This document shows, piece after piece, positions 1,138 through 44,760 of a stretch of DNA of 44,760 bases. This DNA is from Actinidia chinensis (taxonomy: Eukaryota > Streptophyta > Magnoliopsida > Ericales > Actinidiaceae), in the NCBI GenBank assembly GCA_009663005.1, contig CM018903.1:15402734-15447493 (forward strand), read 5' to 3'. The notes below the pieces were generated by a model. The model made no database searches and was not told the origin of the DNA. It worked only from the letters and a program-made list of their open reading frames with translations. The position numbers and the translations under genes were made by a program. Positions within the stretch are counted from its first letter, which is position 1. Every line of letters begins with the position of its first letter.

Positions 1138-3535
1138 TATGTTTTACAAGTTAACTCGATTAAATGCGAGAAGGGGTTTTATCCGAACTGGTTTAAGCTC
1201 TGAACTGCCTTCACTTGTTTTAAAGATCTAGTTGCACTCGATAGAAAACTCGAGAGAAAGCTAACTGAACTCGAACAGGTTTCCGAGCTTGTCCACCTGT
1301 AATTTTTTATAAGTTAACGCGATTAAAACGGGAGATGGGGTTAGGCCGAACTTAGTTGAAGCTCTGAACTGCATTCACATGGCTTTAATCCAGTTGCACT
1401 TAGTAAAAAATTGATAAGAAAGATAGCCGAACTCGAACGAGGGTTCCGAGCCTGTCCCAATGCAAGTTTTTTACAAGTTAACTCGATTAAATGCGAGAAG
1501 CTGTTAGACGAGCCTTGTTTTGAAGCTCCCGAACTGCCTTCACTGGCTTTCATCCATTGCACTTGGTAGAAAATCCAGGGACAAGCAAGCCGAACTCGAA
1601 GAGGTTCTGAGCTTGTCCCATGTAATTTTTTTTACAAGTTAAAACAACTCGATTAAAACACGAGAAGCGGTTACCGAGCTGATTTGAAGCTCCTAACTGC
1701 ATTCACTATTATATCTAGGTTCCTTGTAGAAAAATCCAAGGAAACTTAGCCGACGTCGAATGACGGTTCCGAGCCCATATAATGTAATGTTTTTACAAGT
1801 TCACTCGAGTAAAATGGCGAGACCTGGTTGAGCCAAGCTCGTTGTAAACTCTGAACTACCTTCACTGGCTTTAATCCAACTGTCATTGGAGAAAAAATCC
1901 AAGGTATAGCTACTCAAACTTGAACGAGGGTTTCCAAGCTTTTCCATGTAAATTTTTGACAGTTACTCTATTAAACGAGAAAGGGTTGCCGAGCTGATTT
2001 GAAGCTCCGAACTACATTCACTATGATATAGCCAGGTTCACTGGTAGAAAAATCACAGGCAAAGTTATCCAACTAAAACTCGCGAGGGTTTCCGACTTAA
2101 TCGAATATATGTTTTACAAGTTAACTCTATTAAAATGCAGAAGGGGTTGCCTGAACTGTTTTGAAGCTCTGAACTGCCTTCGCTTGTTTTAATCCAGTGC
2201 ACCTTGGTAGAACAAAAAATCGATAGGAAAGCTAGCTGAACTCGAACGAGGTTTCGAGCTTGTCATGTAATTTTTTATAATTTAACTCGATTAAACGGGA
2301 GAGGGGTTTAGCCGAACTAGTTTGAAAATCTCTGAACTGCAATTCACTGTCTTTAATCCAGTTGCACTTAGTAGAAATTTGATAGAAGATAGTCCGACCT
2401 CGAACGAGGTTTTCCGAGCCTGTCCAATGCAAGTTTTTACCAGTTAACTCGATTAAAATGGCAGAACTGTTAGACGAGCTTTTTGAAGCTCCCGAACTCT
2501 CCTTCACTGGCTTTCAGCCAGTTGCACTTGGTAGAAAAATCAAGGGAAAGCAAGCCGAACTCGAACGAGGGTTTCTGAGCTTGTCCCAGGTAATTTTTTA
2601 CAATTTAACTCGATTAAAAACGAGAAGCGGGTAGCCCGAGCGGATTTTGAAGCTCCGAAATGCATTCACTAGATATAATCTAGGTTCACCTTGGTAGAAA
2701 AATCAAGGAAAAGTTGCCGAACTCGAACGAACGGTTCCGAGCCCGTCCAATGTAATTTTTACAAGTACTCGATTAAATGGAGAACGGGTTGCCGAGTTGG
2801 TTTTTAAATTTCTGAACTGCCTTCACTGTTTTAATCACTACATTTGTAGAAAAATCCAGGGATCGGTACCCAAAACTTGAACAGAGGTTCCAAAGCTTTC
2901 CAATGTAATTTTTTACAATTTAACTCTATTAAAAACGCGAGAAAGGGTTAGCTGAACTGGTTTGAGCTCCGACTGCCTTCCACTTTGATTTAATCCAGTT
3001 GCACTTGGTAAAAAATCGATATTAAGCTAGCCGAACACGCACGAGGGTTCCGAGCTTGTCTAATGTAATTTTGTACAGTTAACTCGATTAAAACGCTATA
3101 AGGGGTTCGCCGAGCTAGTTTTGAAGCTCCGAACTCATTCACTGGCTTTAATCCAGTTGCACTTAGTAGAAAATCGATAAGAAGATAGCCGCACTCGAAC
3201 GAGGGTTCTGAGTCCTGTCCAATGCAAGTTTTTACCATTAACTCGATTAAAATGTCGAGATGGGTAGACACTTTTTGAAGCTCCGAACTGCCTTCACTGG
3301 CCTTTCGTCCAGTTGCACTGGTAGAAAAATCCAAGAGAAAGCAACGAACTCGAGACGAGGGTTCTGAGCTTGTCTAATGTAATTTTTTTACAAGTTAACT
3401 CGATTAAAACACGATAAGGGTTAGTCCGAGCTGATTTGAAGCCCGAACTAAAGTCACTAGATATAATCCAGTTCACTTGGTAGAAAAATCAAAGGGCAGT
3501 TACCAAACTCGCACAGGTTCCGAGCTTATCGAATA
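1138..3535. repeat. 15-monomer higher-order repeat, copy 1
   Basis: Monomer order is G'-F'-H2-B-C2-B-G'-F'-H2-B-C-G1-F-H2-B. Internally it contains two related blocks of six and nine units that both begin G'-F'-H2-B. The two G' units differ: the first reads cttcacttgtttt with cactcgatag, the second cttcgcttgtttt with an ordinary cttggtag. The same difference recurs in the same slots of the next copy, showing that the true period is the whole 15-mer and not the six-unit half. Starts are precise to a few bases because of indels. Confidence 0.8.
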
Positions 3536-5055
3536 TAATGTTTTTACCAGTTTTAACTCGATTAAATCCGAGAAGGGGTTAGCCAAACTGGTTTGAAGCT
3601 CTGAACTGCCTTCACTTGTTTTATCTCCAGTTGCACTCGATAGAAAAATCGATATAGGAAAGCTAGCTGAACTCGAACGAGGGTTTCGAGCTTTCCAATG
3701 TAATTTTTTATAAGTTAACCTCAATTCTAAAACAACGGGAGAAGGGGTTAGCCTAACTAGTTTTTGAAACTCTGAACTGCCTTCACTGGCTTTAAAAATT
3801 TCCGTTGGCACTTAGTAGAAAAATTGATAATAAAGATTATCCGAACTCGAACGAGTTCCGAGCCTGTCCAAGCGAAATTTTTACAAGTTTAAAAACTCAG
3901 ATTAAAATGCGAGAAGCGTTAGACGAGCTGTTTTGGAAGCTCCGACCTGCCTTCACTGGCGTTCACATTCAAGTTTGCCTTGGTAAGAAATCCAAGGGAA
4001 GCAAAACCGAACTCGAACGAGGGGTCTGAGCTTGTCCTAATGTAATTTTTTATTACAAGTTAACTTTCCGGGAAAAACAAATTAAAACACGAGAAGCGGT
4101 TAGCCGCGCTGATTGAACGCTCCGAACTGCATTCACTAGATATAATCTAGGTTCACTTGTGTAGAAAAATCCAAGGAAAAGTTAGGCCGACTCGAACGAC
4201 GGTTCCGAGCCCGTCTACTGTAATTTTTTACAAGTTAACGCGATTAGAAATGCGAGAACGGTTAGCCAAGCTCGTTGTAAAACTCTGAACTACCTTCACT
4301 TGGCTTAATCGCAACTATTCCAAACTGCATTTGGTAGAAAATCCCAGGGATAGCTACCAAACTTGAACGAGGGTTCCAAGCGTTGTCCATAGTGAAGTTT
4401 GTTACAAGTTAACTCTATTAAAACAACACGAGAAGGGGTTAGCCGGCTGATTTGAAGCTCCGAACTACATTCACTAGATATAATCGCAGTTCACTTGGTA
4501 GAAAAATCAAAGGCAAAGTTAGCCAAAACTAACTCGAATCGAGGGTTCCGATCTTATCGAATAGAATGTTTTTACAAGTTAACTCGATTAAAATGCGAGA
4601 AGGGGTAGCCGAACTGGTTGGAAGCTCTGAAACTGGCCTTCGCTTGTTTTAATCGCATTTGCACTTGGTAGAAAACTCCGATAGGAAGCTAGCTGAACTC
4701 GAACTAGGTTTCCCGAGCCTGTCCAATGTATTTTTTTTATAAGTTAAATCTCTATTAAAACGGGAGAAGGGGTTAGCCTAACTAGTTGAGCTCTGAACTA
4801 CGGCATTCATGGCTTTACTCAGTTGCACTTAGTAGAAAAATGATAAGAAAGATAGCCGAACTCGAACGATGGTTCCGAGCCGTCCAATCAAGTTTTTTTA
4901 CAAGTTAACTCGATTAAAATGCGAGCAAACTGTTAGAACGAGCTATTTTGAAGCTCCGAACTGCCTTCATTGGGCTTTCATCCAGTTGTCACTTGTAGAA
5001 AAATCCAAGTGAAAAGCAAGCCGAACTCGAACGAGGGTTCTGAGCTTGTCCAATG

Positions 5056-5216
5056 TAATTTTTTACAAGTTAACTCGATTAAAACACGAGAAGCGGTTAG
5101 CCGAGCTGATTTGAAGCTCCGAACTGCATTCACTAGATATAATCTAGGTTCACTTGGTAGAAAAATCCAAGGAAAAGTTAGCCGAACTCGAACGACGGTT
5201 CCGAGCCCGTCCAATG
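5056..5216. repeat. Satellite monomer type B (reference copy)
   Basis: An exactly 161-bp copy. It is the easiest type to recognise: acacgagaagcggttag near the start, gctgatttgaag, then cactagatataatc followed by taggttcac or caggttcac, gaaagttagcc, and the ending gagcccgtcc. I located about 50 copies. Their spacing, usually a clean multiple of about 160 bp, was the ruler for finding the higher-order repeats. B is normally followed by type C or C2, and by A in the 8-mer block at the right end. Confidence 0.92.
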
Positions 5217-5654
5217 TAATTTTTTACAAGTTAACTCGATTAAAATGGGAGAACGGGTTAGCCGAGTTGGTTTTAAATTCTGAACTGCCTTCACTGGTTT
5301 TAATCCAACTACATTTGGTGAAAAATCCAGATTGGTCCCCCCAAAACTTGAACGAGGGTTCCAAGCGCTTATCCAATGAATTTTTTTTACAAGTTACTCT
5401 AAAACTCTTTAAAACGCGAGAAAGGTTTAGCTGAACTGGTGGGGGAAGCTCCGACTGCTTCACTTGAATTAAATCCAGTTGTCACTTGGTAAAAAAATCT
5501 ATAGGAAAGCTAGCCGAAACTCGACGAGGGTTCCGAGCTTGTCCAATGAATTTTGTATCAAGTTAACTCGATTAAAATAACGCGAGAAGGGTTTAGCCGA
5601 GCTAGTTTGAAGCTCCGCGAAACTGCCTTCACTTCACTGGCTTTAAATATCCAG

Positions 5655-5670
5655 TTTTTTTTTTTTTTTT
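5655..5670. repeat. 16-base T homopolymer inside a monomer
   Basis: The word ccagttgcacttgg is interrupted by a run of 16 T, about 14 more than the two expected. The unit is otherwise intact on both sides. No target-site duplication or transposon sequence accompanies it. It is most simply a sequencing or consensus insertion. Confidence 0.85.
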
Positions 5671-43956: not shown

Positions 43957-43974
43957 CCCCCCCCCCCCCCCCCC
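43957..43974. repeat. 18-base C homopolymer inside a monomer
   Basis: The word ggttccaagcttgtcc of a type C monomer reads ggttccaagtg, then 18 C, then tgtcc. The preceding 150 bases are free of errors, so the run stands alone in clean sequence. Confidence 0.85.
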
Positions 43975-44134
43975 TGTCCAATGTATTTTTACAAGATTAA
44001 CTCAATTTAAACTGAGAAGGGGTTAGCTGACTGTTTTAAAGCTCTTAACTGATTTCACTGGCTTACTCAGTGCCACTTGATAGGAAAATCCAAGGAAAGC
44101 TGCGAACTCAACGAGGTTCTGAGCTTGTCCAATG

Positions 44135-44294
44135 TAATTTTTTACAAGTTAAATCGATTAAAATGCGAGAAGGGGTTAGGCGAACTGGTTTGAGCTCGGG
44201 AATTGCCTTCATTTCCATAAATCCGTTGCAATTGCTAGGAAAAATCAATAGGAAAGCTAGCCGAACTCGAACGAGAGTTCCGAGCCTGTCTATG
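44135..44294. repeat. Satellite monomer type E (reference copy)
   Basis: A 160-bp copy. Diagnostic words are atgcgagaaggggttaggcg, gaattgccttcatttcc, a shortened cataaatcc in place of gctttaatcc, and gaaaaatcaatagg. It is found directly after D. Other copies are near 9455 (divergent), 26720, 28640, 29630, 31870, 36690, 41590 and 42870. Confidence 0.85.
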
Positions 44295-44760
44295 TAATTT
44301 TTTAACAAGTTAACTCGATTAAAACGCGAGACGGGGTTAGCGAGCTGTTTAAGCTCTGAACTGCCTTCACTGGCGCCTTAAAGCCAGGTGCACTTGGTAG
44401 AAAAAATCAAGGGCAAGCAAGCCGAACTCGAACGGAGGGTTCCGAGCTGTCCAATGTAATTTTTTACAAATTAACTCGATGAAAACTGGAGAAGAGGTAG
44501 ACGAGCTGATTTGAAAGCCTCCGACCTGCATTAACTAGATATAATCCAGGTTCACTTGGTAGAAATCAAAGGGAATTTAGCCGAACTCGAACGAGGGTTC
44601 CGAGCTGGTCCAATGTAATTTTTTACAAGTTAACTAGATAAAACGCGGAGAAGGGTTAGCCGAGCTAGTTGAAGCTCGAACTGCCTTTACTGGCTTTAAT
44701 CCAGTTGCACTTCGGTAAAAAATCAATAGGAAAGCTACTCGAACTCGAAAGGGGTTCGAG

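Follow-up and report, generated by a model that had tools for sequence, protein, structure and literature searches.

The window analysed here, 44,760 nucleotides of Actinidia chinensis DNA (C16:15402734-15447493, where C16 is the 26.1 Mb sequence CM018903.1 of a 638.4 Mb assembly in 1499 contigs), consists of a satellite with a unit of 161 bp. Tandem Repeats Finder (TRF), applied to the whole window, reported this period over positions 137-44757, interrupted by a gap, and 277 head-to-tail units were delimited by a wraparound profile alignment, 151 of them at 1-24660 and 126 at 24761-44760. Tandem head-to-tail units of a single length are the arrangement of satellite DNA, and the single family proposed in a first-pass annotation accordingly spans the whole window. 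The consensus unit has a GC content of 46.0%. Exactly 100 N, the customary mark of a scaffold join, fill positions 24661-24760; the window is therefore two contigs at unknown distance and not the one 45-kb succession that had been described. Neither the gap nor the read-level noise, nor the common order of unit types described below, figured in the first-pass annotation. Overlap of the two contigs across the gap was considered and dropped: the best dovetail, 7 units long, had a mean identity on variable columns of 0.78, which equals the threshold chosen for a run.

Units were sorted into types with a mixture model. The Bayesian information criterion was minimal at 8 classes among the 12 class numbers (K) tried, with the parameters roughly counted as 60 per class. 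The check suggested in the first-pass annotation, a profile cut followed by clustering, thus recovered unit types with high posteriors, which exceeded 0.95 at K = 6, 8 and 10 for every unit except the terminal fragment (276 units) and at K = 14 for 99.6%, and the registers described below follow from these types. Letters denote the 14 types at K = 14, assigned in order of abundance, and Greek labels denote the six classes.

Discrete unit types were found to recur in repeating order, with units at the same position of the order more alike than neighbours, which is the organisation of a higher-order repeat (HOR). Runs of matching units at a fixed lag numbered 53 in contig 1 (mean 1.35, maximum 6 in 100 shuffles) and 53 in contig 2 (mean 4.7, maximum 11 in 100 shuffles), counts to which one block contributes several runs, at multiples of its own period. 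The resulting blocks are collected in Table 1. No single HOR dominates over a long distance; at least six periods occur within the 45 kb, and the longest block inside the window is the 6-unit register at 16329-24508. The sequence in which the first-pass annotation lists its registers does not correspond to their arrangement along the window: the 10-mer proper lies at 36819-41393, and 6704-8638 matches a part of it (12 units).

Table 1. Contigs, scaffold gap and repeat registers in the window (positions in the window; identities are means on variable columns).
Position	Strand	Feature	Basis
1..24660	+	contig 1 of scaffold	151 tandem 161-bp units; TRF and profile cut
623..5709	+	15-unit register, two copies	lag-15 run, 16 consecutive pairs, mean identity 0.89; 20-mer peak at lag 15
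5710..7505	+	5-unit register, two copies	lag-5 run, 6 pairs, 0.87; 20-mer peak at lag 5
9586..11974	+	3-unit register (G-N/A-C), five copies	lag-3 run, 12 pairs, 0.88, also lags 6 and 9; 20-mers at lags 6, 9 and 3
12609..16671	+	irregular stretch, partial lag 16/17 matches	unit clustering, lag runs
16329..24508	+	6-unit register (D-A-C-E-B-x), about eight copies	lag-6 run, 44 pairs, 0.84; lags 12, 18, 24, 30 and 36
24661..24760	.	100-N scaffold gap, true length unknown	no convincing dovetail between flanking sides
24761..44760	+	contig 2 of scaffold	126 tandem units, running on to the right of the window; TRF and profile cut
27644..32647	+	20-unit register, 1.5 copies	lag-20 run, 11 pairs, 0.87; 20-mer peak at lag 20
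33118..34705	+	5-unit register, two copies	lag-5 run, 5 pairs, 0.92; exact 20-mers
~34065..41393	+	10-unit register M-F-B-I-A-J-H-A-C-E and 11-unit variant (G-L replaces E)	lags 10, 11, 20, 21 and 31; type string; 20-mers
41230..44744	+	8-unit register C-G-L-D-A-M-F-B	lag-8 run, 14 pairs, 0.92; type strings

The occurrence of multiple registers within 45 kb, as first proposed, was borne out by the shuffles and by two further lines of evidence. Distances between exact 20-mers, in which no consensus is involved, peaked at the run lags or at multiples thereof. The top 20-mer peaks of the 6-mer block print as 37 and 30; we read the former as lag 36 shifted by inserted bases that lengthen the units. 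Simulated arrays with a uniform 6-, 10- or 8-mer and added noise (5% insertions, 4% deletions and 3% substitutions; random noise only, no misjoins) displayed multiples of the true period only, in 65 of 65 windows, and random base noise therefore does not create register switches.

The registers are interconnected through a common grammar. At six classes, the cycle delta-alpha-gamma-epsilon-beta was followed in 157 of 274 steps (91 of 150 in contig 1 and 66 of 124 in contig 2), whereas in 300 shuffles no 5-cycle did better than 25%, and a six-member cycle with an added zeta class accounted for 60% of steps. Of 52 alpha units 43 preceded a gamma, and of 49 delta units 40 preceded an alpha. The conditional entropy of type order was 1.37 bits at K = 8 as opposed to 2.68 ± 0.03 in 500 shuffles. 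The 6-mer corresponds to the pentamer cycle plus one unit, and the 11-mer and the 8-mer have the sub-blocks M-F-B and C-G-L in common with differing units in between, which fits the pattern that exchange would leave.

The flanks were examined for 100 kb on each side, part of which was not read. The assembled array spans 15395513-15511292 on C16, or roughly 116 kb, of which about 17.5 kb was not read, and its edges in the assembly lie 7.2 kb to the left of the window start and 64 kb beyond the window on the right. Further 100-N gaps are found at C16:15463675, 15488678 and 15543857. The satellite changes strand exactly at the first of these, either through a real inversion or through unresolved contig orientation, and contig order and orientation are therefore provisional. 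To the right of the window the 8-mer pattern recurs as a lag-8 run of 16 pairs (C16:15450024-15453696), followed by a lag-6 block (15457865-15461103); this part of the same contig gave 15 runs at lags 8 and 6. Two further contigs of the array, both on the minus strand, gave 34 runs at lags 5, 10, 27 and 37 (contig c) and 27 runs at lag 11 (contig d). The shuffle maxima, from 50 shuffles each, were 6, 8 and 8, respectively. At the left edge there was one run, at lag 7 and 8 pairs long, and this number of runs was also attained among the 50 shuffles. Unit types were in addition assigned in two short stretches, 15486275-15488677 and 15488778-15491277. A non-satellite insert of 1.49 kb with 53% GC lies at C16:15453931-15455420, inside the 8-mer region. 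The suggestion that the window represents an array edge held in so far as the array begins 7.2 kb to the left; blocks of varied period nevertheless continue towards the right edge. As repeat blocks are also present in the other contigs of the array, an edge effect alone is insufficient to explain them.

Genome distribution was evaluated with a 21-base word of the satellite at up to one mismatch, which gave 258 matches compared with none for the reversed control. Among the 100 matches listed, all exact, 53 were spread over eight contigs (C88, C107, C109, C129, C1092, C1100, C1160 and C1216) and 47 belonged to C16, where 46 fell in this array. The remaining one is an isolated exact word at C16:15729148, about 218 kb to the right of the array. 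The four of the eight contigs with known length measure 19-75 kb. Pieces of 10 kb from four of the eight (C129, C1160, C88 and C107) carry the satellite, and in two of these pieces the runs exceeded all 50 shuffles (13 against a maximum of 7 in L030; 8 against 3 in L031). That the satellite is specific to one chromosome is a lead from the matches listed.

We consider it probable that a pentamer-derived satellite has diversified through local amplification and unequal exchange without any HOR taking over. An ancestral HOR with some five types, arranged as delta-alpha-gamma-epsilon-beta, would have been rearranged by out-of-register exchange between similar units, and local tandem amplification of each new arrangement would then have generated the short blocks of 3, 5, 6, 8, 10/11, 15 and 20 units, with no single arrangement having swept the array. 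Repeated local amplification and unequal exchange had been put forward in the first-pass annotation, and they fit the unit types that the registers have in common, the proportion of cycle steps and the common sub-blocks, as well as five mosaic types. When described as mosaics of two parents, five of the 14 types (D, E, F, H and M) lost at least 3 differences while the other nine lost 0-2, a comparison that carries no significance test. H, for instance, went from 4 differences to 1 as the left part of E joined to the right part of D, and E and F each went from 8 to 3. Exchange within units has probably made recombinant types too. We infer that the cause was unequal crossing-over and not replication slippage or gene conversion.

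Several results weigh against diversification by exchange and amplification. Unequal crossing-over is indistinguishable here from slippage or conversion. For several registers there are at most two copies. Letter calls at K = 14 were correct in 83-88% of cases in simulated noisy arrays, and single letters should therefore not be over-read. Two of the four pieces from other contigs gave no clear block signal (8 runs against a mean of 3.1 and a maximum of 14 in L029, and 36 against a mean of 43.8 in L032, in 50 shuffles). In contig 2, moreover, 2 of 200 first-order Markov simulations reached the best run and 30 of 200 the summed run score, as would be the case if the registers were chance runs under neighbour preferences, with each type constraining no more than its successor; contig 2 thus surpasses this null only marginally, on its best run and not on the sum. 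An account by neighbour preferences alone is very improbable. In contig 1 none of 200 simulations reached either the best run or the summed score, by which it is largely refuted there, and the 8-mer of contig 2 combines 14 consecutive pairs at 0.92 with 245 exact 20-mer pairs at lag 8 and recurrence outside the window.

The remaining points against concern the assembly, which is a mostly unpolished, gapped scaffold in which some boundaries could be misjoins. Indels per unit in the window were distributed bimodally, with 0-2 in 20 of 277 units, 3-4 in none and at least 5 in 257 (partial end units included), and most of the window is therefore read as unpolished long-read consensus. It looks like raw consensus with polished islands; low-indel (0-2) islands occur at 5027-5187, 15849-16009, 17164-17647, 19293-19614, 37774-38095, 43616-43936 and elsewhere. 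For the assembled array, cut by a slightly different procedure into 599 units with at least 100 matched columns, the corresponding numbers were 45 units with 0-2 indels, 15 with 3-4 and 539 with at least 5. Seven pairs of HOR copies differed by 5-8% substitutions and 10-14% gap bases, with about half of the gaps beside an identical base. A long T run within a unit near 5655 is typical of read or consensus error. Adjacent HOR copies were 91-94% alike on match columns, a value that counts only unit pairs scoring more than 0.8 on the variable columns and whose true level is masked by read noise. Substitution marks common to many units should be reliable despite this noise.

Noisy long reads from different parts of a large array, or from two haplotypes, could have been joined, some or most of the switches then being joins. 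We regard such an artefact as unlikely to account for the registers. The four gaps and the strand flip described above, the largely raw appearance of the consensus and the additional satellite copies on other contigs speak for it, as does a very noisy unit within three units of three of the eight register boundaries (36 indels at 5709, 33 at 16329 and 47 at 36819). Several switches nevertheless fall inside single contigs, and at the other five boundaries the six surrounding units carry ordinary indel loads (6-16). In addition, the 8-mer recurs to the right of the window in the same unit order, and sub-blocks are common to different registers.

The setting of the array is probably pericentromeric or centromeric. 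The array may even be a live centromere core, that is, a putative CENH3-binding site of which the patchwork is the normal state, as in arrays that lack a dominant HOR, a possibility that is compatible with diversification by exchange and that we hold only tentatively. The nucleosome-sized unit and the one main locus at 15.40-15.51 Mb of a 26-Mb sequence point in this direction. Against it, the assembled array measures only about 116 kb between visible edges, although gaps may conceal more, and the copies elsewhere, among the 100 of 258 matches listed, are not on other large chromosomes. Salicaceae HOR arrays without CENH3 peaks also exist (PMC12046899).

Short tandem repeats of 64 bp and 51/103 bp lie where the array ends on the right and immediately beyond it (C16:15511287-15511618 and 15513155-15513446). 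The left flank gave a weak integrase match (PF00665, E 4.9e-05) under the Pfam cut-off, and the right flank the plant snoRNA snoR71 (RF00097; 41.5 against a gathering score of 40, with 9 of 20 flank loci scanned). An Rfam scan of the window returned no family at gathering score. A plasmid search with a 2001-base query gave no match, nor did one exact 21-base satellite word in viral contigs or in the genome contigs searched, and a prokaryotic or mobile origin of the satellite was dropped for lack of a match to the queries tried. Six words of the satellite occur in none of the papers searched. Dyad symmetry was dropped as a feature of the unit: the consensus has 8 short inverted repeats, and at least 8 were found in 172 of 1000 dinucleotide shuffles. 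Among dyad pairs in 33 clean units there were few double changes (one pair changed from C-G to T-A, in 4 units), and most changes disrupt pairing. The DNA fold z-score was only -1.62, with folding at least as good in 14 of 200 shuffles.

In human alpha satellite of suprachromosomal family 3 (SF3), with its W1-W5 pentamer, HORs retain remnants of one five-class order, and low-copy HORs occur in peripheral alpha satellite (PMC4496801). The present satellite resembles SF3 in architecture, through its nucleosome-sized units, their discrete classes and the traces of a five-class order. Alpha-satellite cores are described as homogeneous HOR arrays, whereas the blocks in the window comprise about 1.5 to 8 copies. 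On this analysis, the array would best be read as resembling the low-copy peripheral HORs; those of human SF5, however, are found in older layers that adjoin a homogeneous core, of a kind that the present draft does not show.

It is conceivable, though doubtful, that an architecture like that of alpha satellite, with five ancestral unit classes and HORs derived from them, arose independently in a satellite restricted for the most part to a single plant chromosome. The process would then be caught midway, with about eight competing registers, possibly differing in age, in roughly 116 kb and none homogenised, and the array would be readable as a record of successive exchange events. The origin of a HOR and its spread through an array are still debated, and coexisting registers traceable to one five-unit order would permit the order of exchanges to be reconstructed unit by unit. 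In practical terms, HOR structure is recoverable through heavy read noise, and gaps and unpolished consensus need to be checked before switches are counted.

The contrast drawn in the first-pass annotation with homogeneous human arrays was overstated, also in view of the peripheral low-copy HORs. TRASH gives mixed periods on human chr5, chr8 and chr13 where the reference annotation gives one (PMC10199239), and orangutan arrays are described as a patchwork of HOR blocks (PMC12428378). The present array is like these in having several HOR blocks per array. The orangutan and mixed-period human blocks sit in complete, much larger arrays.

Among plants, Arabidopsis CEN178 and the Salicaceae satellites have a similar unit length and many multi-unit duplications (PMC10199239, PMC12046899), and TRASH forgoes the definition of classes since units may not fall into classes (PMC10199239). 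Set against the Arabidopsis and Salicaceae arrays, the units here form discrete classes with a clear common cycle. Centromere-candidate satellites of Acer match in unit length (161 bp in A. truncatum and 160 bp in A. yangbiense) and differ in reported GC (53% and 41.25%, against 46.0% here; PMC7702125). A 161-bp satellite of Bradysia is a different sequence with 76.4% AT. The newness seems to lie in this satellite and its grammar and not in the kind of structure.

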